From Mesorhizobium opportunistum WSM2075 (lineage in GTDB: Bacteria; Pseudomonadota; Alphaproteobacteria; Rhizobiales; Rhizobiaceae): DNA of 64,000 bases. Shown piece after piece: positions 5,358 to 55,498 of this stretch (position 1 is the stretch's first letter; every line of letters begins with the position of its first letter). The notes under the pieces were generated by a model. It did not search any database. It saw nothing but the letters and a program-made list of their open reading frames with translations, and was not told the DNA's origin. A program made the translations under genes and the position numbers. The stretch spans positions 3,414,001 through 3,478,000 of the forward strand of contig NC_015675.1 of NCBI RefSeq assembly GCF_000176035.2, read 5' to 3'.

Positions 5358-5920
5358 ATCCGGGCCTCCCTGTCGAGCAAGGCATGCTTGCGCTCGATGC
5401 CCCAGCGGTAGCCCGCCAACGTGCCGTCGGCACGGACAACGCGGTGGCAGGGAATGCCGAGCGCGATGGCGTTGGCCGCACAGGCCGTTGCCACGGCGCG
5501 GGCGCCGTTGGACTGGCCAAGGCGTTGGGCAAGCGCGGTGTAGGTGATGGTGGCGCCGCGGGGGATGGTGCGCAGCACGTCCCATACACGCTGCTGGAAC
5601 GGCGTGCCGTGGCTGACGTCGAGCGGCAGGTCGAGGCCGGCGGAGGGCGTTTCGACGAAGCGCGCGATCGCGGCAAGGTCGTCGCTCAGTCCGGGCTCGT
5701 CTTCAATCAGAATCTTGCCAGGGAAGCGGTTGGCGATATCCTGCTCCAATGTTTCGGCACTAGAGCCGATCAGAATGGCGCAGACGCCGATCCGGCTGCG
5801 CGCCGCCAGGATGTTGCCGATCGCGGATTGGCCGATGGCGTAGGTTATTGTGTCGAGGGCTGCGGCTGCGTTGGAGGCTGTCGCCGGGTTGATGATTTGC
5901 ATAAGGTTCATTGCCTTCAC
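5354..5920 (-). CDS. ogt: Methylated-DNA--[protein]-cysteine S-methyltransferase (half-Ada type)
   Basis: This 188-residue O6-alkylguanine-DNA alkyltransferase has the active site PCHRV (Cys acceptor), the recognition helix segment 'GARAVATACAANAIALGIPCHR' and the upstream 'GTPFQQRVWDVL' motif. The N-terminal part aligns with the middle of the full Ada at 6456 (FAVGEASLGSILVASS compared with YAIGQSAIGNILAARS). It therefore looks like a duplicate of Ada that lost the zinc and AraC parts. It shares an ATGA junction with the downstream PF09859 oxygenase. It could also be labelled a truncated Ada; the repair function itself is clear. Confidence 0.92.
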   Translation of the reverse strand: MKAMNLMQIINPATASNAAAALDTITYAIGQSAIGNILAARSRIGVCAILIGSSAETLEQDIANRFPGKILIEDEPGLSDDLAAIARFVETPSAGLDLPLDVSHGTPFQQRVWDVLRTIPRGATITYTALAQRLGQSNGARAVATACAANAIALGIPCHRVVRADGTLAGYRWGIERKHALLDREARI

Positions 5921-6455: not shown

Positions 6456-7580
6456 TCAGCTCCGTGCAGATCGGTAAGCGCTGTCGGATGCATTCGATCC
6501 ACCCGCCTCGCGGTCGAGCAGCGCGCGCTTGCGCTCGGCGCCCCAGGCATAGCCGGACAGCGCGCCGTCCTTGCGGATCACGCGGTGGCAGGGGATGGCC
6601 ACCGCATGCGCGTTGGCCGCGCAGGCGGCGGCGACGGCGCGCGTGGCGTTCGGCGTACCGATGCGCCGCGCCATCTCGGCATAGGACACCGTCTTGCCGA
6701 CAGGGATCTCCTGCAATGCCTGCCAGACGCGCTGCTGGAACGCCGTGCCGCGCACGTCGAGCGGCAGGTCGAGGCCGAGCGCCGGCGCCTCGACGAAACC
6801 GACGACGCGGGCGACCAGCGCCTCGTAATCGCGGTCGCCGCCGATCAGCCGCGCCTTGGGAAAACGGTCTTGCAGGTCGTGCACCAGCGCGTCGGGATCG
6901 TCGCCGAGCAGGATCGAGGCGACGCCCTTCTGGCTCGACGCGACCAGAATGCTGCCGAGCGAGGCCTCGCCGACGGCGAAGCGGATGTCCTCGTTGGCGC
7001 CGCCGGCACGGTAGCGGGTCGGCGTCATGCCGAGCATGCCGGTCGATTTTTCGTAGAAACGCCCGCTCGAATTGAAGCCGGCGTCATAGATCGCGGCCGT
7101 CACGCTGGCACCGTCTTCGAGGCCCTGGCGGACCCGGGCGGCCCGGCGTGCGGTGGCGTAGTCCTTCGGGGTCAACCCGGTGATGGCCTTGAAGACACGA
7201 TGGAAATAGCCGGCGCTGCGGCCGGCTGCACCAGCCAGTTCGGCGAGCGAGGGTTCCTCCTCGCTATGCTCTATCCTGCGGCAGGCATCGGCGACCATCG
7301 CGGCGTTGCCGGCTTCAAGCGAGGGACCATCCGGATTGCAGCGCCGGCAGGGGCGAAAGCCGGTCGCCCTGGCCTGATCCAGCGTGTCGTGCAACTGCAC
7401 GTTTTTCGGGTTGGCCTGCCGCGACGGGCAGGAGGGGCGGCAGTAGACGCCGGTCGTCGCCACCGAATACCAGAATTCGCCGTCCGCCGATTTGTCGCGC
7501 GCGACGATACGCGCCCAGCGCGGATCGTCGGCGACCGGCAGCGGGACGGATTTCAGATCTTTGGTCAGGGTGATGAACAT
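6456..7580 (-). CDS. ada: Bifunctional Ada: alkylation-response regulator and O6-methylguanine-DNA methyltransferase
   Basis: This 374-residue protein has the full Ada order. The N-terminal Ada-Zn domain has four cysteines (YCRPSCPSR and FRPCRRCNP) that take methyl groups from phosphotriesters. The AraC-type HTH is at about 85-180 (LAELAGAAGRSAGYFHRVFK and 'AAIYDAGFNSSGRFYEKS'). The C-terminal methyltransferase has 'GTAFQQRVWQAL' and active site PCHRV. When methylated, Ada activates its own regulon. The ATG at 7580 was chosen over a GTG 36 bases upstream because it gives the usual MFxTLxxD start. The half-Ada and PF09859 genes lie just downstream on the same strand and are plausible regulon members. 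Confidence 0.95.
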   Translation of the reverse strand: MFITLTKDLKSVPLPVADDPRWARIVARDKSADGEFWYSVATTGVYCRPSCPSRQANPKNVQLHDTLDQARATGFRPCRRCNPDGPSLEAGNAAMVADACRRIEHSEEEPSLAELAGAAGRSAGYFHRVFKAITGLTPKDYATARRAARVRQGLEDGASVTAAIYDAGFNSSGRFYEKSTGMLGMTPTRYRAGGANEDIRFAVGEASLGSILVASSQKGVASILLGDDPDALVHDLQDRFPKARLIGGDRDYEALVARVVGFVEAPALGLDLPLDVRGTAFQQRVWQALQEIPVGKTVSYAEMARRIGTPNATRAVAAACAANAHAVAIPCHRVIRKDGALSGYAWGAERKRALLDREAGGSNASDSAYRSARS

Positions 7581-7622
7581 GGCCGCATTGAAGCCGCCAA
7601 ACGCCGGCCTCGCCACCCGTTT

Positions 7623-7638
7623 CCTGACAACTGTCAGG
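7623..7638. promoter_or_regulatory. Palindrome upstream of ada
   Basis: The arms cctgaca and tgtcagg are separated by two bases, 43 bases upstream of the ada start codon. The arms are perfect. It may be a regulator site (Ada itself or a LexA-like repressor) or a hairpin in the leader. There is no direct proof of which factor binds. Confidence 0.35.
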
Positions 7639-7733
7639 AGGGGCGGACTTTATCGATGTTCGAGAAACTAAACCTGAGCTCTACAATTTTCCATCGGGCA
7701 AGATTATGACAAGGTTGATCTGGAGAAGGTGTG

Positions 7734-7955
7734 ATGGAAAACATTCGACCCATTAGGACCGAAGCTGACTACGATTGGGCGATCGCCGAAATCAGCAGAT
7801 ATTTCGAGAATGGGCCGGAGGTCGGCTCTCCTGACGGCGACCGCTTCGATGCTCTTGCGTGCCTGATCGAGGCTTATGAAGACAAGTACTACCCGATTGA
7901 ATCACCCGATCCCATTGACGGGTCGCATCCAATCGGATTCAAAGGTTCCATGTAA
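7734..7955 (+). pseudogene. Truncated HigA-type antitoxin N-terminus
   Basis: This 73-residue product begins ENIRPIRTEADYDWAIAEI and continues 'GSPDGDRFDALACLIEAYEDKYYPIESPDPI'. This is the conserved N-terminal region of HigA-2-like antitoxins, which normally leads into an XRE helix-turn-helix domain. Here the frame diverges after 'DPID' and stops, so no HTH is present, and no HigB toxin frame is seen on either side. GGAGAAGG lies 4 bases before the ATG. The gene is best read as the relic of a toxin-antitoxin pair, though a short expressed protein cannot be excluded. Confidence 0.7.
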
Positions 7956-8012
7956 GTCATTGTTCTCGTTGCATGTAGCCCAGGGTTGATAAGCGTTTGG
8001 CGGTAGGCTCTC

Positions 8013-8705
8013 CTACGCCGCACGCTTGGGCTCCACCGCGAACGGGCTGAGGCCGAGCCAGGTCTGCATCTTCCTGCCGATGGCCTGGTCGCCGGTCAGG
8101 GCGACCTTGGCGCCGGCCTTTTCGACGGTGAGCAGACCCATCCAGATCGCCGTCATCGTGTGCAGGTCGGTCGAGACGTAGAGGTCGACCTCGAAGCCCG
8201 GATCGTACCAGCACAGGTCGACCTCGCCGTGCTTTTCCACGATCAGCCACCACGACCGTTTGGAGACCGGGAGCTCCTGGTACAGGAATTGTATCACGGT
8301 GCGCCCATCGGGCAGCGGCGAGGGGTTCAGATTGCGCCGCATGTCCCACATCAACAGCGACGGATCGAGGTTCTTGAGCGACAGCCGGGACTCCACCCAC
8401 TTCTGCCCCCAGAACCCCATCGCCTCGACGACGGGGCGCAGATCTCGGCCTGCCTCGGTCAGTTGATAGTCGAAAATCCCCTTCTCGCCCTGGACCGCCT
8501 TGCGCTCGACGATGCCGGCCAGCTCGAGCTCCTTCAGCCGTTGCGACAAAAGGGTCGGCGACATTTTGGGGACGCCGCGGCGGAGGTCGTTGAAGCGGGT
8601 CGAACCTGCCACCAGTTCGCGCATCAGCACCATCGTCCAACGGGTGCACAGCACCTCGGCGGCCATCGATAGCGGGCAGAACTGCTTGTATCCGTGCTGG
8701 GCCAT
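8013..8705 (-). CDS. HxlR family winged-helix regulator with C-terminal SCP2-like domain
   Basis: This 230-residue protein has an HxlR winged helix at about residues 8-100. The segments are QFCPLSMAAEVLCTRWTMVL, 'STRFNDLRRGVPKMSPTLLSQRLKEL' and 'GERKGIFDYQLTEAG'-like wing residues. The C-terminal half (about 130-225) has 'WMGLLTVEKAGAKVALTGDQAIGRK', which resembles an SCP2 sterol-carrier-like ligand domain. HxlR proteins often sense electrophiles or redox stress. The gene is divergent from the DUF1330 gene, with a strong inverted repeat between them. That repeat is the likely operator, so autoregulation plus control of the neighbour is expected. Confidence 0.9.
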   Translation of the reverse strand: MAQHGYKQFCPLSMAAEVLCTRWTMVLMRELVAGSTRFNDLRRGVPKMSPTLLSQRLKELELAGIVERKAVQGEKGIFDYQLTEAGRDLRPVVEAMGFWGQKWVESRLSLKNLDPSLLMWDMRRNLNPSPLPDGRTVIQFLYQELPVSKRSWWLIVEKHGEVDLCWYDPGFEVDLYVSTDLHTMTAIWMGLLTVEKAGAKVALTGDQAIGRKMQTWLGLSPFAVEPKRAA

Positions 8706-8767
8706 GATCGGTGCCTCTCCCTCGAACCTGAGCCGAACATTAGCCCTTCATGATTGAAGCGGCGAGT

Positions 8768-8795
8768 ACAGAAACTGTACCGGGCCGGTACAGAT
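8768..8795. promoter_or_regulatory. Compound inverted repeat between hxlR-type gene and DUF1330 gene
   Basis: Two overlapping palindromes are seen. GTACA-N5-TGTAC covers 8768-8782, and CTGTACCGG-G-CCGGTACAG covers 8777-8795 with perfect 9-base arms. They share the middle half-site, so three GTAC-containing half-sites are evenly laid out. They lie between the divergent starts at 8705 and 8884. This is the expected position for an HxlR dimer operator. Binding is inferred. Confidence 0.6.
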
Positions 8796-8883
8796 CGCGG
8801 ACTGGTTGGCAGAGGCCTTGCCATGCGAGCCCTTTGGCCGGTCGCACGGGATATCCCTGTGCGCCGCAACCAAGGATACGACC

Positions 8884-9210
8884 ATGACTGCTTACCTTAT
8901 CGCGGACATCAAGATGAAGGACCCGAAATGGGTGCCGGACTATGCCGCCTCGGTGCACGACCTCGTCCACAAGCATGGCGGCAAATATCTGTCGCGCAGC
9001 GGCAATGTGAAGACACTCGAGGGCAAGCCGCTCGACACCACGCTGATCGCCCTGATGGCATTCCCGTCGGAAGCCGCGGCGCGCGCCTTCACCAACGATC
9101 CGGCCTACGCGCCTTTCGTCTCGGCGCGTCAGGGCGGCAGCGACAGCCGTTTCCAGCTCATCGACGACACCGATCTCGCCGGAACGATACCGTATCTGCC
9201 GAAGGGATGA
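8884..9210 (+). CDS. DUF1330 domain-containing protein
   Basis: This 108-residue ferredoxin-like alpha/beta-barrel protein of the DUF1330 family has MTAYLIADIKMKDPKWVPDY, 'YLSRSGNVKTLEGKP' and 'LIALMAFPSEAAARAFTNDPAY'. Members are dimeric with a conserved arginine or lysine region, and the biochemical role is not established. The gene is divergent from the HxlR-type regulator at 8013-8705, which probably controls it through the inverted repeat at 8768-8795. The ATG at 8884 was chosen because the conserved domain begins there. Confidence 0.88.
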   Translation: MTAYLIADIKMKDPKWVPDYAASVHDLVHKHGGKYLSRSGNVKTLEGKPLDTTLIALMAFPSEAAARAFTNDPAYAPFVSARQGGSDSRFQLIDDTDLAGTIPYLPKG

Positions 9211-39151: not shown

Positions 39152-39288
39152 GGCTGGCCTGTCCAAACGTCCTCTCCCACAAAGGCCGAGACGCGAATCA
39201 TTCCATGAGCTTCAGCTGATGATCCCACAGGTGCGGACCGATGAAAAGCCGGCTGGCAAAGGCGGGCATCGGTGGCCGCTTGGCCTGT

Positions 39289-39317
39289 TTGTCGGGTGAG
39301 GGCAGTTATGCTATGAT
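39289..39317 (+). promoter_or_regulatory. Sigma-70-type promoter of RNA copy A
   Basis: TTGTCG and TATGAT are separated by exactly 17 bases. The spacer contains gagggcag, also found between the boxes of copies B and C. Transcription would start about 39324. Confidence 0.7.
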
Positions 39318-39322
39318 CTGGC

Positions 39323-39374
39323 CATGGTGCTGATTTGCGCCGAAGACCCGCCGCCTTGGCGGGTTTTGTGTTTT
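39323..39374 (+). ncRNA. Compact two-hairpin small RNA, copy A
   Basis: A predicted transcript of about 50 bases follows a promoter. The first hairpin is ggtgc-tgattt-gcgcc (one G-U pair), then a short linker. A terminator hairpin follows, with arms acccgcc and ggcgggt at 39346-39364, followed by T-rich sequence. Copies B and C share the first hairpin base for base; the linker differs by a few bases (cgaag here, caacg there). An AUG stands at the predicted 5' end and could allow a leaderless peptide, but the paired stems argue for a structured RNA. I do not recognise an Rfam family. Confidence 0.65.
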
Positions 39375-39455
39375 TCCAGCCTCCTCAAGCGATGCCGTTC
39401 ACTCCTCGGCGCTGAGCCGAGGGAAACGAAATAGGAATTTTTTCTCAGAAAGTCG

Positions 39456-39485
39456 TTGACCGGCTGAGGGCAGCCATGCTACATA
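39456..39485 (+). promoter_or_regulatory. Sigma-70-type promoter of RNA copy B
   Basis: TTGACC and TACATA are separated by 18 bases. The 30 bases upstream (with 'aaacgaaataggaatttttt') are nearly identical to those before copy C, so upstream elements are conserved as well. Confidence 0.7.
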
Positions 39486-39490
39486 TTTGT

Positions 39491-39537
39491 CCATGGTGCT
39501 GATTTGCGCCAACGACCCGCCGCCGAGGCGGGTTTTT
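39491..39537 (+). ncRNA. Compact two-hairpin small RNA, copy B
   Basis: Same build as copy A: ggtgc-tgattt-gcgcc hairpin, linker aacg, then the terminator arms acccgcc and ggcgggt (39515-39533) with TTTTT. It is nearly identical to copy C along about 120 bases, including the region before the promoter. It reads toward the 3' end of the methyltransferase gene at 39583. Confidence 0.7.
39515..39537 (+). terminator. Rho-independent terminator of RNA copy B
   Basis: A seven-base GC-rich stem (acccgcc/ggcgggt) with a five-base loop is followed by five T. Copies A (39346-39374) and C (40587-40608) have the same design. Confidence 0.85.
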
Positions 39538-39582
39538 GATTCTGGAGACGACCTTCTGGGGCCCCCGGCGGATCGGTTCCGG

Positions 39583-40398
39583 TCAGCCAGTCTTCGAAAC
39601 GATCACGGCCAGCGATGCGAGCTTGCCCTCACTCAGGCTGCGAATGTAGTTCTTGCGCCGCTGCACGAATTCGGCGCCGAGCACGATCTCATTGGCCTGC
39701 TGCTGGGCGGGCGAGGGCAAGATGCCGGAATTGGCCCTTTTGAGCGCCAGTTCGATGTGTTCGCCAGTTTCGTCGATGATTTCGTCGATCCGGAATCCAG
39801 CGTCCACGAACAGGGTTTTCAGGGCACTGCGGTCGACGAGGTGGCTCGTCGCCGGTGAGACCGCCCAGGGCAAGGGATAATACGGCTCTCCGCCAGTAAG
39901 CACCGCTTCGGTCCAGATCAACTTGCCTCCTGGCTTGAGCACGCGAAAAGCCTGGCCGATGACCGCGGGCTTGTCGGCGATGTTCATGCCGACATAAAAG
40001 CAGATCGCCGCATCGAACGTGTCGTCGGCGAAAGGCAGTCTGGTCGCGTCCGCCTCGTGGAAGCGGACCTTCTCGCTCAACCCGCTGAGCTTGGTCAGTT
40101 GGGCGGACGCGTCGACAAAAGCCTTTGTCAGATCTACGCCGTCGACGGCGCAGCCATAGGTGGAGGCCAGGAACCGCGCCGGACCGCCGATGCCGCTGCC
40201 GATATCCAGGATGTGGTCGGAAGATGAAGGCGCCAGACGGGCGGCATGGTCCTGCGTGGCTATCAGTTCGCGGCCATGAAGCTGGTCGAACGGGTAGAGT
40301 TGCCTGGCATCGAGAGCGTCGATTTTGGCATCGGGGATGGCGGCCAATATGCGCTCGACGATGCCGTCGCTGCCGTAGTGCGTGGTGACGTTGCTCAC
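39583..40398 (-). CDS. Class I SAM-dependent methyltransferase
   Basis: This 271-residue methyltransferase has motif I 'HILDIGSGIGGPARFLA', 'VDGVDLTKAFVDASAQL' (acidic loop), 'VRFHEADATRLPFADDTFD' and 'AFRVLKPGGKLIWTE'. It resembles UbiE/gamma-tocopherol or sarcosine-dimethylglycine methyltransferases. The 'LYPFDQLHGRELIATQDHA' start is like glycine-sarcosine methyltransferase-type proteins. The GTG start has GGAGGAGGC before it. The gene is bracketed by two near-identical small RNA modules (copies B and C). Confidence 0.9.
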   Translation of the reverse strand: MSNVTTHYGSDGIVERILAAIPDAKIDALDARQLYPFDQLHGRELIATQDHAARLAPSSSDHILDIGSGIGGPARFLASTYGCAVDGVDLTKAFVDASAQLTKLSGLSEKVRFHEADATRLPFADDTFDAAICFYVGMNIADKPAVIGQAFRVLKPGGKLIWTEAVLTGGEPYYPLPWAVSPATSHLVDRSALKTLFVDAGFRIDEIIDETGEHIELALKRANSGILPSPAQQQANEIVLGAEFVQRRKNYIRSLSEGKLASLAVIVSKTG

Positions 40399-40528
40399 GG
40401 CGCCTCCTCCATCCTCACGCGCAGCTTCCCATCAATGGATGCATTAGGCAACGGGCGGACGACCGGAGGGGCCTTGAGGGCAACATTGCCGGGAAAAAAC
40501 GAAATAGGAATTTTTTCCCAGAAAGTCG

Positions 40529-40557
40529 TTGACCGGTGAGGGCAGCTATGCTACATA
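40529..40557 (+). promoter_or_regulatory. Sigma-70-type promoter of RNA copy C
   Basis: TTGACC and TACATA are separated by 17 bases, with the same upstream block as copy B. Confidence 0.7.
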
Positions 40558-40562
40558 TTTGT

Positions 40563-40608
40563 CCATGGTGCTGATTTGCGCCAACGACCCGCCGCGAGGC
40601 GGGTTTTT
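40563..40608 (+). ncRNA. Compact two-hairpin small RNA, copy C
   Basis: This copy has the ggtgc-tgattt-gcgcc hairpin, then the linker aacg, then the terminator arms acccgcc and ggcgggt (40587-40604) and a T-run. Between B and C the terminator loop differs in length while the stem is kept, which is what selection on RNA structure would leave. It lies in the 540-base gap between the divergent methyltransferase start and the first prophage gene. Confidence 0.7.
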
Positions 40609-40671
40609 GATTCTGGCTCTCCGTCAAGCGAAAGCAGCCCTTGTTTCGAGATTGAAACGTTGGCGGGACAG

Positions 40672-40874
40672 CACCCCCCTCTGTCCTACCGGACATCTCC
40701 CCCGCAAGGAGAGAGATTGGCAGCTTCGTTGGCGGCGCTCTTCTTCCTTCGTTGCCAGAGAACATCTCGGCCAAGAAACTGGCGAGATGCTAACATTGGA
40801 GATTGGCGAAACCTTTGATTGCGGCCGATCTCCCCCCTTGCGGGGGAGATGTCCGGCAGGACAGAGGGGGGTGC
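40672..40874. repeat. Long intergenic inverted repeat, family 1 (second copy)
   Basis: The left arm, around 40672-40722 (with 'ctctgtcctaccggacatct'), faces a right arm around 40825-40874 (with 'agatgtccggcaggacagag'). Each arm has an inner palindrome of the ctccccc...ggggag type. It is the same family as 6016-6186. It sits just left of the prophage remnant. Confidence 0.85.
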
Positions 40875-40938: not shown

Positions 40939-41349
40939 ATGCCACGCTACGCCACCATCATCACCGGCGATGACGGCCGCGAGGTTGTCAGCGCCATCGG
41001 CGAATTCGAGGGTGCGGCGCCGCAGGTGCGCCTGGGCCGGGTCGAGCAGGTCGCGCCCGGCGTGCTGATCGGCATGGTGCGGGATGCGGCCGGTGGCTTT
41101 TGTTTGCCGCAAGCTGGCGTCGATGGCCGCGCTGTCGGGCTCGCCATGGCGAGGCTCAAGGCACAGGCCGGTGTTGCAAAACCGGCCCGGTCGGCGAAGC
41201 CTGCCGAGGCCGCAAGGCCGAAGCGCGCCAGGAAGGCCAGGAAGAAAATCACCCGCTCGAAAAAGCCGGCGAGGCGGGCCAGACCGGCGCTGCCGAAGGC
41301 GGCGGTGTCCTCCGGCGACGCCAACACCGCGGGGCAAGCCGATGGCTGA
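40939..41349 (+). CDS. Phage-associated protein with Lys/Arg/Ala-rich C-terminus
   Basis: This 136-residue protein has an ordered N-terminal half ('YATIITGDDGREVVSAIGEF', 'GRVEQVAPGVLIGMVRDAAG'). A histone-like basic, Ala/Pro-rich tail follows ('AARPKRARKARKKITR', 'KKPARRARPALPKAA'). The stop overlaps the next gene by eight bases. It sits where small-terminase or DNA-packaging helper genes lie in rhizobial prophages, and the basic tail suits nucleic-acid binding, but the family is not recognised. Confidence 0.7.
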   Translation: MPRYATIITGDDGREVVSAIGEFEGAAPQVRLGRVEQVAPGVLIGMVRDAAGGFCLPQAGVDGRAVGLAMARLKAQAGVAKPARSAKPAEAARPKRARKARKKITRSKKPARRARPALPKAAVSSGDANTAGQADG

Positions 41350-41737
41350 CCAGGCCGATGCCGTGCCGGCGCGGCGCAAGGCGAGGCCGGCAAGGCGTAG
41401 ACCTGTCGTCAGCCCGGCGATTGACCAAAAGCCCCGCCCGAAGCAGGCGAAGAAGACGCTGGGAGACGACTTTCTCGCCGCCGTGCGCGCCGATTTCCGG
41501 ACGCATGGCGCCGGCGTCATCGCCGAGGTGCGGGCCGACAAGCCGGACCAATATCTGAAGATCGTGCTTTCGGTGCTGCCCAAGGATTTCGATGTCTCCA
41601 TCAACCAACTGGACGGGCTGAGCGATGAGGAAATCCGCAGCCGCATCCGCGCCCTCGAAACCGCCCTCAGGCCGTTCCTCGAAGAGCCCGCTGATCTCGG
41701 CCAGAACCGAATATCTGGCGCTGCTGGCGGAGCTTGA
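41342..41737 (+). CDS. Probable phage protein upstream of terminase large subunit
   Basis: This 131-residue protein has a basic, disordered N-terminus ('ARRKARPARRRPVV') followed by 'LGDDFLAAVRADFRTHGAGVI' and 'QYLKIVLSVLPKDFDVSINQLDGLSDEEI'. The second part resembles a helical small-terminase-like domain found in front of terminase genes in Mesorhizobium prophages. It overlaps the upstream gene by eight bases and the terminase frame by about 110 bases, although the terminase start is uncertain. Confidence 0.7.
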   Translation: MADQADAVPARRKARPARRRPVVSPAIDQKPRPKQAKKTLGDDFLAAVRADFRTHGAGVIAEVRADKPDQYLKIVLSVLPKDFDVSINQLDGLSDEEIRSRIRALETALRPFLEEPADLGQNRISGAAGGA

Positions 41738-42389
41738 CCGCCGGCGCCGCACCAACCAGTTGGCGGCGTACAAGCCTTATCCAAGGCAGGCGGAATTCCA
41801 TGCCGCGGGTGCGATAAACCGCGAACGCCTGTTCATGGCCGGCAACCAGCTCGGCAAGACCAGGGCCGGCGGCGCGGAATGGGCGATGCACCTCACCGGC
41901 CGCTATCCCGATTGGTGGCAAGGCAAGGTTTTCGATACGCCCGTGCGGCTGTGGGCCGCCGGCGTCACCGGCGAGGGCACGCGCGACAATCCGCAGCGCG
42001 TGCTGATCGGCCCGCCGCAGCAGCAGGCGGCCTGGGGCACCGGCATGATCCCGGCCGATGCTATTCTGCAGACCACAATGGGCCGCGGCGCACCCGGCGC
42101 GCTCGACAGCGTCGTGGTGCGCCATGGCGGCGGCGGCGACGTGCAGGCCGGCGAGAGCGTGCTGTCGTTCAAGAGCTTCGAGAAGGGCCGCGAGAAATGG
42201 CAGGGCGAGACGCTGCACGGCGTCTGGTTCGACGAGGAACCGCCGCTAGACATCTATTCAGAAGGCCTGACCCGCACCAATGCGACGGGTGGGATTACCA
42301 TCGTCACCTTCACACCGCTGCTCGGGATGAGCGATGTGGTGCTGCTGTTCCTGTCGGCGGGGCAGGTGGAGGGAATGTCGAAGGGGTGA
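41625..42389 (+). pseudogene. Terminase large subunit, N-terminal ATPase part, truncated by insertion
   Basis: A 254-codon frame has the packaging ATPase motifs: the phosphate-binding loop GNQLGKT (residues 73-79), the Walker B 'GVWFDEEPP' (199-207) and the coupling motif 'GGITIVTFTPLLGMSD'. An intact terminase continues into an RNase-H-like nuclease domain. Here the sequence breaks after 'LLFLSAGQVEGMSKG' and stops. The missing part reappears at 44822 after a block of foreign genes. The only ATG lies well inside the previous gene, so the true start is unclear. Confidence 0.85.
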
Positions 42390-44821: not shown

Positions 44822-45120
44822 ATGTCCCGACACGTCACCTTCATGACCATCGACGATGCCGCGCACTATTCGCCCGACGAGCGCGCGGCGATCGTTGCCG
44901 CCTATCCCGCGCATGAGCGCGAGGCCCGCGCGCGCGGCATTCCGGTGCTGGGTTCGGGCCGCATCTTTCCGGTGGCCGAGGCGCTGATCGCCTGCGAACC
45001 GTTCCGGCTGCCGCGCTACTGGCCGCGCCTCGGCGCGCTCGATTTCGGCTGGGACCATCCCTCGGCCGCGGTCGAGCTCGCCTGGGATACGGAGGCCGAT
45101 GTCGTCTATGTCACCAACGC
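44822..45120 (+). pseudogene. Terminase large subunit, C-terminal (nuclease) fragment
   Basis: The fragment reads SRHVTFMTIDDAAHYSPDER, 'AAYPAHEREARARGIPVLGSG', 'RLGALDFGWDHPSAAVELAW'. This is the continuation of a P22-like terminase, with the first nuclease-site Asp in ALDFGWDHP. Homology ends at about 'VVYVTNAN', where the tail-fibre sequence begins in another frame. The frame then runs to 45217 with no phage-like sequence. It lacks the rest of the nuclease domain, so it cannot work alone. Confidence 0.8.
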
Positions 45121-45126
45121 GAACCC

Positions 45127-46938
45127 GTGCGCCTGGCGACCACGGCCAACATTGCCCTCTCAGGGCTGCAAACCATCGATGGTGTCGCCACCGAAGTCGG
45201 CGACCGTGTGCTGGTGAAGAACCAAGCCGACGCAAGCGAGAACGGCATCTATACAGCCAGCGAGGGCCAGTGGTTCCGCGCCGCCGACGCGCGCACCGCG
45301 CGCACAATGCAGAAAGGCACGACGGTGCATGTGCAGCAGGGCGCCGTCTCGTCCGACTTTGTCTATGCCTTCGAAACACTGAATCCGGTGATCGGCACCG
45401 ATGCCATCACGCTCGCCTTCTTCCTCTCCGAAGACACGCTGGGCGATGCCACGGCGGCCGCGACGGCCGCCGCCAGCAGCGCGGCGGCGGCGCTTACCTC
45501 CAAGAACGCGGCGGCCACCAGCGCCACCAACGCCGGCACCTCGGCGACGGCCGCGTCCGGATCCGCCACGGCGGCTGCAGGCTCCGCCTCCACGGCGGCG
45601 ACTTCGGCCACCAATGCCGGCACTTCGGCAAGTGCCGCATCGGGCTCCGCCTCGGGTGCCGCGACCAGCGCCACCAACGCCGGCAATTCGGCCACCGCAG
45701 CGGCCGGCTCGGCAAGTGCGGCCTCGGGCTCGGCCACGGCGGCGTCGACCTCGGCGACCAACGCCGCAACCTCCGCCACCAACGCCGCGACATCGGCTAC
45801 GGCGGCGGCAAATTCGGTGGCGGCGCTGAGCTACACCTTCTCCACGACAACCGCCGATGCCGACCCGGGCAACGGCGCCTTGCGGCTGAACAACGCCTCG
45901 GCCGCCTCCGCGACGGCGGCCTATGTCGACAATCTCGACGCCGGCGGCGCCACGGTGAACGGCATTCTCGACACGTTCGACGACAGCACCAACACCATCA
46001 AGGGCCAGCTGATGCTGCGCTCCAAGGCATCAGCCGCCATCTCCTATGTCTACAACGTCACCGGCACGGTGGTGGACGGCAGCGGCTACCGCAAGCTGAC
46101 GCTCGCCTATGTCAGCGGCTCCGGCGCCTTGCCGACAACGGCAGGCGGCATCTGGCTGATGTTCGACCGGACAGGGGACAAGGGGGCGGATGGGCTTGGG
46201 GCCGGTGATTTCACAGGGCCGGCTTCCTCGGTGAGCGACAACATCGTCACCTTCAACGGCACATCGGGCAAGGCGGGCAAAGACAGCGGCATCAAGGCGA
46301 GCGACCTGATCGCCGGGCCTGCGTCGGCCGTTGCCGACAACATCGCCACGTTCAATGGCACCACAGGCAAGATCGCCAAAGACAGCGGCGTGGCGGTGTC
46401 GAGCCTGGCGCCAAAAGCCAGCCCGACGTTTACGGGTGTTCCAGCCGCTCCGACAGCCGCGCCCGGCACGAACACGACGCAGCTTGCGACGACGGGGTTT
46501 GTCAAGGCGGCGATCGATGTCGTGCTGGGTGGGGTGTCAACGACGTTTGACACGCTGGCGGAGATTGCGGCGGCACTCGGTCTACTGGCCCCGATCGCCA
46601 GTCCGACATTCACCGGGGCGCCCGCTGCTCCCACCGCCGCGCCAGGCACCAACACCACGCAACTAGCGACCACGGCTTTTGTGGCGTCCAGTATCAACTA
46701 TAGCACGGGCAATGCCGCCTTGGTGGCAGGCGGTATCGGTACTTACAGCCTCTGCGCGACCAGTCCGGCTGCATCCCTGGGCACCGGTCAGGTGGTTGCG
46801 GGAAGCACGCTTAAATATTCACATGCCGCCGGCAACCCTAGCGGCACTACATCTCCACCTGGAAGTTGGCAGTGTATGAGCGCGACTAGTTCTACTGGTG
46901 GTGCTGCCGGCGTGGCAGTATTCTTGAGGGTCTCGTGA
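45127..46938 (+). CDS. Phage tail-fibre-like protein, probably missing its N-terminus
   Basis: This protein of up to 603 residues starts 'VRLATTANIALSGLQTIDGV', a segment common near the start of rhizobial phage fibre proteins. About 19 heptads of the type xSATxAx follow (residues 103-235, 'SATNAGTSATAASGSATAAA'), which predicts a trimeric coiled shaft. Next is a paired repeat 'DNIVTFNGTSGKAGKDSGI' / 'DNIATFNGTTGKIAKDSGV', then a pair of 'SPTFTG.PAAPTAAPGTNTTQ' units. The end is a receptor-binding-type tip. The GTG at 45127 lies right at a deletion junction, so the natural start is probably lost. Confidence 0.82.
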   Translation: MRLATTANIALSGLQTIDGVATEVGDRVLVKNQADASENGIYTASEGQWFRAADARTARTMQKGTTVHVQQGAVSSDFVYAFETLNPVIGTDAITLAFFLSEDTLGDATAAATAAASSAAAALTSKNAAATSATNAGTSATAASGSATAAAGSASTAATSATNAGTSASAASGSASGAATSATNAGNSATAAAGSASAASGSATAASTSATNAATSATNAATSATAAANSVAALSYTFSTTTADADPGNGALRLNNASAASATAAYVDNLDAGGATVNGILDTFDDSTNTIKGQLMLRSKASAAISYVYNVTGTVVDGSGYRKLTLAYVSGSGALPTTAGGIWLMFDRTGDKGADGLGAGDFTGPASSVSDNIVTFNGTSGKAGKDSGIKASDLIAGPASAVADNIATFNGTTGKIAKDSGVAVSSLAPKASPTFTGVPAAPTAAPGTNTTQLATTGFVKAAIDVVLGGVSTTFDTLAEIAAALGLLAPIASPTFTGAPAAPTAAPGTNTTQLATTAFVASSINYSTGNAALVAGGIGTYSLCATSPAASLGTGQVVAGSTLKYSHAAGNPSGTTSPPGSWQCMSATSSTGGAAGVAVFLRVS

Positions 46939-48468: not shown

Positions 48469-49179
48469 ATGGACCGCAACTTCGCGCTGGCGCTTGCGCT
48501 TGTCTTGAAATCGGAGGGGGGCTGGTCGGACAACGCGGCCGATCCGGGCGGCGCCACCATGAAGGGGGTGACGCTGGCGAATTTCCGCCGCTATGTCAGA
48601 GCGGATGCCATCAAGGCCGATCTGCGCAAAATCAGCGATGACCAGGTCGCGACCGTCTATCGGCGGTTCTATTGGGACGCGGTGCTCGGTGCCGAACTGC
48701 CCGATGGCATCGATTACGCCGTGTTCGATTTCGCCGTGAACAGCGGCCCGGGCAGGGCGGCCAAATATCTGCAGGCCGCGGTGGGCGCCGTGCAGGACGG
48801 TCGCATCGGGCCGGCCACGCTCGGCGAAGCCAGGGCAAAACCGGCGGGCGTCGTCATCGATCAGCTTTGCGACGCGCGGCTGGCGTTTCTCAAGCGCCTG
48901 CCGACATGGGCCACGTTTGGCAGGGGGTGGAGCGACCGGGTCAGGTCGGTTCGCGCCGATGCGCTCAAGATGACGGCACACCCAGCCCCGCCGACGCCAG
49001 CCCAGCCAGCCACGGTTCCGCAGGCGTCCACGCCGGTTCCCGCTGCTCCCGAGCCTCCGGCCGCGCCGGAGATCATCCATCCTGCTCCAACCCCGACCGG
49101 AGCGCCTGCAACCGTCGAAACCAGATGGCTGTGGCGGCTGCTCAACGCAATCGCCAAAGCCATCTTCAAGAGGAACTGA
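48469..49179 (+). CDS. Phage endolysin, glycoside hydrolase family 108
   Basis: This 236-residue protein has a catalytic domain in residues 1-150: 'ALALVLKSEGGWSDNAADPG' with the GH108 catalytic Glu, 'GATMKGVTLANFRRYV', 'YRRFYWDAVLGAELPDGIDY' and 'DFAVNSGPGRAAKYLQAAVG'. A Pro/Ala/Thr-rich linker (about 165-215) leads to a C-terminal amphipathic 'RWLWRLLNAIAKAIFKRN' that may be membrane-active. It cleaves peptidoglycan glycan strands for lysis. It heads a tight run of small membrane-protein genes. Confidence 0.92.
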   Translation: MDRNFALALALVLKSEGGWSDNAADPGGATMKGVTLANFRRYVRADAIKADLRKISDDQVATVYRRFYWDAVLGAELPDGIDYAVFDFAVNSGPGRAAKYLQAAVGAVQDGRIGPATLGEARAKPAGVVIDQLCDARLAFLKRLPTWATFGRGWSDRVRSVRADALKMTAHPAPPTPAQPATVPQASTPVPAAPEPPAAPEIIHPAPTPTGAPATVETRWLWRLLNAIAKAIFKRN

Positions 49180-49888: not shown

Positions 49889-49992
49889 CGGTTGTCTTGC
49901 TTCCGTTGGGCTCGGCCCTGCTGCTCGGCGAGTTGGTCACTTTCGGCGCCGGGTCGATCTTCGTTTTCCTCGCCGCAAGGGTGGTGACATGA
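49876..49992 (+). CDS. Possible 38-residue membrane peptide
   Basis: A GTG-started frame (VEALTVVLLPLGSALLLGEL...) with one or two hydrophobic stretches links the lipoprotein gene to the next membrane-protein gene, overlapping both. It may be real, as the cassette is tightly packed, or only a spacer. Confidence 0.35.
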   Translation: MEALTVVLLPLGSALLLGELVTFGAGSIFVFLAARVVT

Positions 49993-50309
49993 TGCACGAT
50001 CTCTTCGACCTGCTGGGCATCAAGGGACCTGTCGTCGCCGCCGGTCTTGCCGGTGGTGTCCTGCGCGCGCTGTCGCGCCACCGCTACAAACTGCGCGAAA
50101 TGGTGGCGTCACCAATCTGTGGCGCGCTTGCCGCTGCCTATCTCACACTGCCCGTGGTCCAATATTCCCGCGCCACCGGCCTGCCGCTGGCCAATGACGA
50201 CACGACGACGCTCGCGGCGGCCTTTCTCATCGGCATCTGCGCCATGTGGATTTCGGATTTTTTGTTCGAGGTAATCGTGCGCAAATTCAAGCTGTCAACG
50301 GAGAAATAA
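49989..50309 (+). CDS. Phage membrane protein, putative holin
   Basis: This 106-residue protein has 'IKGPVVAAGLAGGVLRALS', 'ICGALAAAYLTLPVV' and 'LAAAFLIGICAMWISDFLFEVI', so three membrane segments, with a basic C-terminus ('RKFKLSTEK'). Size and topology fit a class I holin. It is the last gene of the lysis cassette. A strong terminator follows at 50364. Confidence 0.7.
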   Translation: MMHDLFDLLGIKGPVVAAGLAGGVLRALSRHRYKLREMVASPICGALAAAYLTLPVVQYSRATGLPLANDDTTTLAAAFLIGICAMWISDFLFEVIVRKFKLSTEK

Positions 50310-54601: not shown

Positions 54602-54789
54602 GGTTTGTCTCCATTTTCTGTGAACTCGTCGCGTAGCGACTGGTGGGACAACCTCTCGGTCCGATGAAGGTTCCCGATAAATTCTCGCGCCGCCAGAGCC
54701 AATCGCTCCCACTCTGGCGCAATGCTTTTGGCGCAGTTCGCTGAAAAAAACGGCTTCCCCAATCGATCGAATGGTGCTTTAACGCGCCC

Positions 54790-54885
54790 ATCCACAGGGG
54801 TGCTCCGTACGGTCGGGGCTGAGACGGGGGCGGCAAGCCCACAGACCCTAGAAGCTGATCTGGGTAATACCAGCGGAGCGAGGCG
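54790..54885 (+). promoter_or_regulatory. TPP riboswitch (THI box)
   Basis: The canonical conserved parts are present in order: acaggggtgc (54793), 'ggggctgagacggg' (the CUGAGA pyrimidine-binding core), 'accctagaagctgatctggg' and 'taataccagcggag'. The element ends a few bases before the ykoF ATG at 54890, and the ribosome site (gaggcggg) is at its 3' edge. This points to translational control by thiamine pyrophosphate. It should turn off the thiamine/HMP uptake operon ykoF-thiX-thiZ-thiY when TPP is plentiful. Confidence 0.95.
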
Positions 54886-54889
54886 GGCT

Positions 54890-55498
54890 ATGTTTTCAGG
54901 CGCACAGATTTCCCTATATCCCATGGCCGACGATTTCGTCGGCGTCATTTTGGGCGCGCTCGGTGCGCTCGATCCCTATCGTGACCGGCTCAGGATCGAG
55001 ACCGACGACATCTCGACCTTGCTGGTCGGGCCGCCCGAAGTGCTGTTCCCGGCTCTGCGCGACCTGTTCGTGGCGGCCGCGCACAGCGGCAAGCATTGCG
55101 TTTTGTCAGCCGCCATTTCGCGTGGCTGCCCAGGCGAGCCGGACGATCCGATCTGCCGCTCCGAGGCCTTCGGCGGACCTGTCGGGCCGCTCTGCCCGCG
55201 CAAGGAAGCCGCCATCGCAGCCGTGCATGGCGCGGTCGCCACCGGCCAGCCGGCGGCGGCGCAATTCTCGCTTTATGTGATGGGTACTGGCGACCACATG
55301 GACGAGATCTATGGCTGCATCGATTTCTTGAAACAGTCCGGCGTCTACGATCGCTCCAAGAATTTCTGCACCAAACTGCGCGGTGATACGGGCGCGATCT
55401 TTTCGGCGCTCAACGAAGCTTTCTGCCGCTTCGGGCCGGGTGCCGGCCACGTAACCCTCGACGTCACGGTTTCCGCCAACAGCCCCACTGCTGTCTGA
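54890..55498 (+). CDS. ykoF: YkoF family thiamine/HMP-binding protein
   Basis: This 202-residue protein has two ACT-like halves: 'AQISLYPMADDFVGVILGAL', 'DDISTLLVGPPEVLFPALRDLF' and 'AAQFSLYVMGTGDHMDEIYG', 'FCTKLRGDTGAIFSALNEAF'. This duplicate layout is that of B. subtilis YkoF, which binds thiamine or its HMP moiety. It lies directly under a TPP riboswitch and ahead of an ABC transporter, so a role in HMP/thiamine uptake is well supported. Confidence 0.9.
   Translation: MFSGAQISLYPMADDFVGVILGALGALDPYRDRLRIETDDISTLLVGPPEVLFPALRDLFVAAAHSGKHCVLSAAISRGCPGEPDDPICRSEAFGGPVGPLCPRKEAAIAAVHGAVATGQPAAAQFSLYVMGTGDHMDEIYGCIDFLKQSGVYDRSKNFCTKLRGDTGAIFSALNEAFCRFGPGAGHVTLDVTVSANSPTAV

Follow-up and report, generated by a model that had tools for sequence, protein, structure and literature searches.

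Why should a bacterial chromosome carry, three times at one locus, a promoter that leads straight into a terminator? The preliminary description of this locus in Mesorhizobium opportunistum WSM2075 read the copies as a stand-alone small RNA with a promoter, two hairpins and a terminator. In the window (the whole stretch of 64,000 nucleotides analysed here) we located three modules on the + strand, at 39289, 39456 and 40529 as it had reported, with predicted starts at 39324, 39493 and 40565. Each follows the same order: a sigma-70-like promoter, ATGGTGCTGATTTGCGCC at +1 to +18, a 3-base linker and a terminator, ACCCGCC-loop-GGCGGGT, with a T run. The 17- or 18-base promoter spacers were found again (TTGTCG-17-TATGAT, TTGACC-18-TACATA and TTGACC-17-TACATA in copies 1, 2 and 3), and the first hairpin is indeed identical in all copies. 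The 16-base core GGTGCTGATTTGCGCC has three exact matches in the window, and the whole 6.88-Mb genome likewise holds three. The terminator loops vary (5, 5 and 4 nt) and the stem is unchanged, also as described. The parts are as follows.

39289..39317, + strand: copy 1 promoter (-35 TTGTCG at 39289-39294, 17-base spacer, -10 TATGAT at 39312-39317)
39297..39304, + strand: copy 1 spacer site, TGAGGGCA; a putative dyad for antiterminator binding, TG[AC]NN[GT]CA
39324..39341, + strand: copy 1 +1 to +18, ATGGTGCTGATTTGCGCC, hairpin 1 with stem GGTGC/GCGCC
39346..39367, + strand: copy 1 intrinsic terminator, ACCCGCC-gcctt-GGCGGGT and T run
39427..39455, + strand: copy 2 upstream T-tract and AT-rich stretch, common to copy 3
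39456..39485, + strand: copy 2 promoter (-35 TTGACC at 39456-39461, 18-base spacer, -10 TACATA at 39480-39485)
39465..39472, + strand: copy 2 spacer site TGAGGGCA
39493..39510, + strand: copy 2 +1 to +18, hairpin 1
39515..39537, + strand: copy 2 intrinsic terminator
40529..40557, + strand: copy 3 promoter (-35 TTGACC at 40529-40534, 17-base spacer, -10 TACATA at 40552-40557)
40537..40544, + strand: copy 3 spacer site TGAGGGCA
40565..40582, + strand: copy 3 +1 to +18, hairpin 1
40587..40608, + strand: copy 3 intrinsic terminator

A consensus promoter scan of 39200-40700 marked copy 1 alone as promoter-like (1 found; shuffles 0.5 ± 0.5). The terminator scan of the same interval found four, those of all three modules and one other (shuffles 1.4 ± 1.4). 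RNA folding of the three copies gave both predicted hairpins, at -25.6 to -26.0 kcal/mol (z -4.8 to -5.0). Copies 2 and 3 have about 118 bp in common, upstream T-tract included, with some five differences; these stretches (39423-39541 and 40495-40612) lie as direct repeats on either side of an opposite-strand methyltransferase gene. Anatomy and conservation together support a compact, selectively maintained unit. It is real and selected, and undescribed in the literature that we searched.

The preliminary description recognised no named RNA family, and our Rfam search agrees, since no model reached its gathering score. The best match below threshold was RF01772 (28.6 bits against a gathering score of 55, E 0.022). 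We rejected rnk_pseudo and P9 as identities; their matches were below threshold and were taken as chance. The claim that structure is the stronger signal could not be upheld. The sequence is near-invariant, and within Mesorhizobium there was no two-sided change in 56 sequences. Addition of phage relatives gave one compensatory pair, at a score reached by 54 of 500 shuffles, so we do not treat covariation as proof of the structure. Among 113 Mesorhizobium copies (122 rows minus nine dropped, phage and plasmid copies being among those left out), 12 changes fell in the hairpin loop and 3 in the stem (p 0.001).

In nearly all copies an AUG stands at the predicted 5' end, which would allow a leaderless micropeptide starting MVLICA. 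However, the 16 changes in this reading frame comprised 1 synonymous and 15 non-synonymous, with 13 and 41 possible, and 106 of the 113 copies have no stop codon before the terminator end (5 have one, 2 were not parsed). Since the changes do not favour synonymous sites, there is probably no peptide, as the preliminary description had expected when it ranked the peptide behind the RNA. We consider a micropeptide hardly credible.

What the preliminary description had overlooked is a conserved 8-bp site in the promoter spacer. It reads TGAGGGCA in 64 of the 113 distinct Mesorhizobium copies; dispersed copies of three genomes (G008, G009 and G080) often have TGCCCTCA, the exact reverse complement, instead (15 of the 113). 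Positions 1, 2, 7 and 8 are nearly fixed across the 113 copies, and positions 3 and 6 are A..G in 77, C..T in 19 (one mis-registered), A..T in 12 and other in 5. The phage copies carry TGACGGCA, TGCCGTCA, TGACGTCA or TGCCGGCA. A palindromic TG[AC]NN[GT]CA between -35 and -10, in either orientation, was present in 9 of 10 phage-locus groups, two of which have one string in common. The occurrence of the site in both orientations points to a dyad-binding protein. Within Mesorhizobium the reversed site is confined to one lineage, the dispersed copies of the three genomes, and so does not stand for many independent events.

The module is widespread in the genus. Of 146 Mesorhizobium genomes, 129 contain ATGGTGCTGATTTGCGCCNNNGACCCGCC when up to three mismatches are allowed. 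These genomes have 1 to 32 copies each, 20 of them at least 10; a reversed-pattern control gave 0 matches in all 146. By BLAST, 133 of the 146 had matches at E <= 0.01, three of these weak. We built a covariance model from 56 copies and ran it with Infernal's stricter filters, 11 candidates being scored per genome. Across 346 genomes of the family 13 matched: six Mesorhizobium, three good matches in other genera and four weak ones (E 0.003-0.009). BLAST of copy 2 returned three M. ciceri plasmids, one weak plasmid match and seven weak phage matches. An rpoB tree covering 60 of the 146 Mesorhizobium genomes indicates at least two separate copy-number expansions.

The dispersed modules adjoin unrelated genes. 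Of the G008 copies compared, 18 of 19 could be paired, through one flank or both, with a copy in G009 or G080; this comparison set aside L232 and L255, which had no module by the filter, and one of the 21 G008 copies. Selection was tested on 12 independent orthologous pairs with both flanks alike, all dispersed copies of these three genomes. Positions +1 to +18 differed at 2/216 against 468/6887 in the flanks (p 7e-5), and in 18 pairs, some with a common member, at 3/324 against 651/10422 (p 5e-6). In the 12 pairs we counted 4/96 differences at -35, 6/132 at -10, 16/144 in the spacer stretch, 12/84 in the discriminator, 7/36 in the linker and 3/84 in the 5' terminator stem. With the lowest difference rate of all, the RNA start is the best-protected segment, and this constraint on copies beside unrelated genes means that selection is independent of the neighbours. 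Upstream of the promoter, at -60 to -45, ATAGGAATTTTTTC recurs in dispersed copies. This stretch, which we take to be UP-element- or IHF-like, is 10% diverged between orthologs (19/182).

In the window, the modules stand in front of the following genes.

39583..40398, - strand: SAM-dependent methyltransferase gene between copies 2 and 3
40939..41349, + strand: 'RYATI' gene of 136 aa, without a match in Pfam or PHROG; the first co-directional gene downstream of copy 3
41342..41737, + strand: small ORF at the place of the small terminase subunit, named by position (phrog_8771, function unknown)
41625..42389, + strand: large terminase N-terminal ORF, 254 aa, PF03237, a separate ORF in the viral relative L137 too
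44822..45175, + strand: remnant resembling the terminase C-terminal ORF, 82% over 118 aa
45127..46938, + strand: tail-fibre-like ORF of the remnant
48469..49179, + strand: GH108 endolysin of the remnant
49989..50309, + strand: small ORF, holin-like by position alone, conserved in several syntenic loci; relative without Pfam match

We compared the window with 11 further long syntenic loci (L115-L123, L251, L319). In all 12 the RYATI gene lies 116-970 bp past the module, and the TerS-like ORF is present in 11. The order of module, RYATI, TerS-like ORF and terminase in syntenic loci identifies the region as the late region of a decayed prophage. In L137 the large terminase (7545-9037) consists of two ORFs with a four-base overlap, so the 254-aa ORF of the window may be natural and not truncated.

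Other features of these loci were noted as well. The methyltransferase gene adjoins modules in L039, L046, L069, L074 and L251 too. In L031 and L032, from M. ciceri plasmids, its neighbour is a decayed module; the two look as though they travel together. L118 (genome G017) has an extra module at 5482, on the same strand and 9 kb downstream of the terminase-linked pair, which suggests that a single remnant carries several late promoters; L064, L066, L071 and L072 have similar copies. At 54786-54899 of the window lies a TPP riboswitch (RF00059, 60.3 bits), followed by ORFs resembling a transport operon.

The module matches in other genera sit directly 3' of a DUF6456 gene. With DUF6456 as bait we collected 11 viral-contig loci (plus three from a first scan, partly overlapping) and the top 80 among 100 genome loci. 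The covariance model matched 18 of the 94, 17 with E <= 1.6e-6 and L137 with 0.17, and every match lay at the DUF6456 gene's 3' end. The other 76 (L136 and L143-L217) nearly all hold an unlinked DUF6456 gene of the Mesorhizobium type. In all five phage loci examined for it (L128, L132, L134, L138 and L139) terminase genes follow 0.6-2.9 kb downstream of the module; the interval holds other ORFs, part of them on the opposite strand. Among 11 phage-type loci folded, several of them close relatives, a 5' hairpin of 3 to 8 pairs was predicted in 10 transcripts (marginal in L141, none in L137), and a terminator in 10, L138 having no clear one. Hairpin sequence and +1 to +18 differ among the phage copies. 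In L137 a diverged unit lies between DUF6456 and a relative of the window ORF 40939-41349, and then come the two terminase ORFs, with 72% and 78% identity to their Mesorhizobium counterparts. A tblastn search of 50,697 phage records with two DUF6456 queries gave no match.

In M. opportunistum the sole PF20057 (DUF6456) gene of the genome is at 3260174-3260761 (E 2.5e-10), about 193 kb from the modules. Its neighbours are an HTH/S24 repressor-like and a GcrA-like gene, both with Pfam matches under the curated cut-offs; of three phage proteins directly upstream of phage modules, two are likewise just under the DUF6456 cut-off. Module and DUF6456 co-occur (Fisher p 2e-17). On the rpoB tree (60 of 146 genomes) the module and the phage-type DUF6456 were gained together once, so this co-occurrence amounts to one event and is weak evidence. 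Two genomes (G115 and G139) keep modules and had no DUF6456 gene in our search, and G144 has a weak match alone. The module-negative G011, G012, G060 and G141 carry strong DUF6456 genes (E 1.7e-46 to 6.6e-50), and those tested genomes that bear modules show weaker ones of the phage type or no DUF6456 at all; a loss of a classical GTA regulator in the latter is possible. In nine genomes (G018, G019, G027, G044, G093, G108, G118, G121 and G123) the aligned Mesorhizobium DUF6456 stretch contains one stop codon, which may mean decay or just an earlier natural end.

The phage relatives, the dyad in the spacer and the place upstream of terminase genes lead us to a late-promoter antitermination switch that makes a short RNA by default. 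Of the preliminary description, the compact promoter/RNA/terminator unit stands, and these same three points argue for a switch in place of the stand-alone small RNA. We consider it probable that each copy derives from a prophage and serves to control late genes through DUF6456 antitermination. Sigma-70 RNA polymerase would start at the A of ATGG; its default product would be an RNA of 45-50 nt ending at the adjacent terminator. By analogy with GafZ and phage 21 Q, we infer that a DUF6456 protein of this kind binds TG[AC]NN[GT]CA between -35 and -10 and joins polymerase held near the promoter, perhaps aided by the 5' hairpin. The loaded polymerase would then read through the terminator into RYATI, the terminase and the lysis genes. 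In Mesorhizobium the phage would have decayed and split, with promoter, RNA start and terminator kept and the unit copied to many intergenic places in several lineages. The case is strong for the phages and the terminase-linked copies. The dispersed copies may or may not act in this way, and there an RNA product may be the point.

The closest known case is the gene-transfer-agent promoter of Caulobacter crescentus, with the DUF6456-family factor GafZ and the ZBE, a putative palindromic element between -10 and -35 (PMC11150451). Both systems have a DUF6456-family factor, a putative binding palindrome in the spacer, phage-like genes downstream and a terminator to bypass (PMC11150451); in Mesorhizobium the regulator lies apart from the cluster. 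However, the site differs (TG[AC]NN[GT]CA in the module, GCGCCCG-CTGGCGC in the ZBE), and the module terminator lies within the first 50 nt, whereas terGTA follows the first gene (PMC11150451). Unlike the GafZ system, the module has many copies per genome in some species.

In lambdoid phages PR' comes directly after the Q gene. The sections of PMC6606751 used here describe a QBE of two direct repeats (TGAGCA) in phage 21 and, in Q-dependent PR'-tR' units, a -10-like sequence in the initial transcribed region that causes a sigma-dependent pause. As far as these sections go, the module resembles such units in the factor site in the -35/-10 spacer, the short leader to a terminator and the late genes beyond; its half-site letters recall the subsite TGAGCA (PMC6606751). 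The predicted fold of DUF6456 may be near Q21; in the fold search sigma-4 domains scored almost level with Q21, and Foldseek E-values were at least 0.1. The Caulobacter authors saw no structural similarity of GafZ to known antiterminators (PMC11150451). Unlike the phage 21 and Q systems, in those same sections, the module has one 8-bp inverted site instead of two direct repeats and a conserved 5' RNA hairpin (PMC6606751). By eye, the aligned spacers held just one 8-bp inverted site and no pair of direct repeats, and +1 to +18, a stretch variable across phage copies, held no good match to the -10-like pause sequence that Q requires. Membership in the Q or GafZ family is unproven, binding and read-through being predictions, the direct-repeat QBE absent and the pause element unseen; the description that fits the module best is that it works in the manner of a Q/GafZ-controlled late promoter. 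A further analogue is AlpA of Pseudomonas aeruginosa, a host-resident antiterminator with a promoter-embedded site, the ABE (PMC11150451). The factor proposed for the module would likewise be host-resident with such a site. AlpA belongs to a protein family different from DUF6456.

Several observations count against the antitermination reading. Although the terminase N part can be recognised in just 7 of the 12 long syntenic loci, the module is still there. Other DUF6456 genes occur in several genomes that lack the module. Opposite-strand ORFs were called between module and terminase in L132, L134 and L139, and L137 lacks hairpin 1 and an exact dyad. The genes downstream of dispersed copies show no significant preference for the module's strand (29 on the same strand and 18 on the opposite one, of 47 by a simple ORF caller, p 0.14). 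Between orthologs the spacer stretch has diverged (11%) while +1 to +18 is kept.

Part of this evidence would suit a multicopy trans-acting small RNA, with the 45-50 nt transcript as the product, the invariant 5' 18 bases pairing with targets or binding a protein, and the copies as sibling genes. Such a gene family would fit the protected RNA start, the excess of loop over stem changes, the unrelated neighbours and the persistence where the terminase was lost. Rhizobial sRNA families are also structured and present in several copies per genome; RFMSmelA075 and RFMSmelA099, as the portion of PMC3927594 used here presents them, have three and four similar hairpins, unlike the module, which reaches no Rfam gathering score. 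The small RNA leaves aside the phage origin at a late-promoter position and the operator-like site in the spacer, and the hairpin sequence varies among phage copies. We regard it as rather unlikely, and as the most serious of the alternatives.

A spreading intergenic repeat, MITE- or REP-like, with promoter and terminator as passengers, would explain the copy numbers and the repeated expansions, and most dispersed copies read do have a common unit from ATAGGAATTTTTTC to past the terminator. However, nearly all G008 copies compared pair with a copy in G009 or G080 by one flank or more, the likely functional segments change least and no transposase was seen beside the copies read, which makes a repeat improbable. 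Still less probable is a promoter that an unrelated host regulator represses or activates at the spacer dyad, the terminator merely insulating. The site is kept in all lineages sampled, and two genomes have modules where DUF6456 was not found, but such a regulator leaves the invariant RNA start, the adjacent terminator and the phage order of DUF6456, module and terminase unexplained.

Antitermination remains our preferred reading. A unit kept near letter-for-letter across much of the genus, at dozens of sites in some species, suggests a virus control circuit retained by its host. As a tentative extension, the circuit may be split, with the locus of S24-type repressor-like, GcrA-like and DUF6456 genes controlling late promoters about 200 kb off, and the up to about 30 dispersed copies may form an antitermination-controlled regulon, possibly DNA-damage-inducible, each copy also making a selected RNA of 45-50 nt. 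We found no description of such a unit multiplied across bacterial chromosomes in the literature searched. Few systems (lambdoid Q, AlpA and GafZ) are known to combine a processive antiterminator with a site embedded in the promoter. The Mesorhizobium system is simple, with a single-gene factor in this genome and strains that have one module. If our reading is true, it would add a rhizobial phage family to these systems, suggest roles for DUF6456 outside gene transfer agents and provide a case of an antitermination unit multiplied across bacterial chromosomes.
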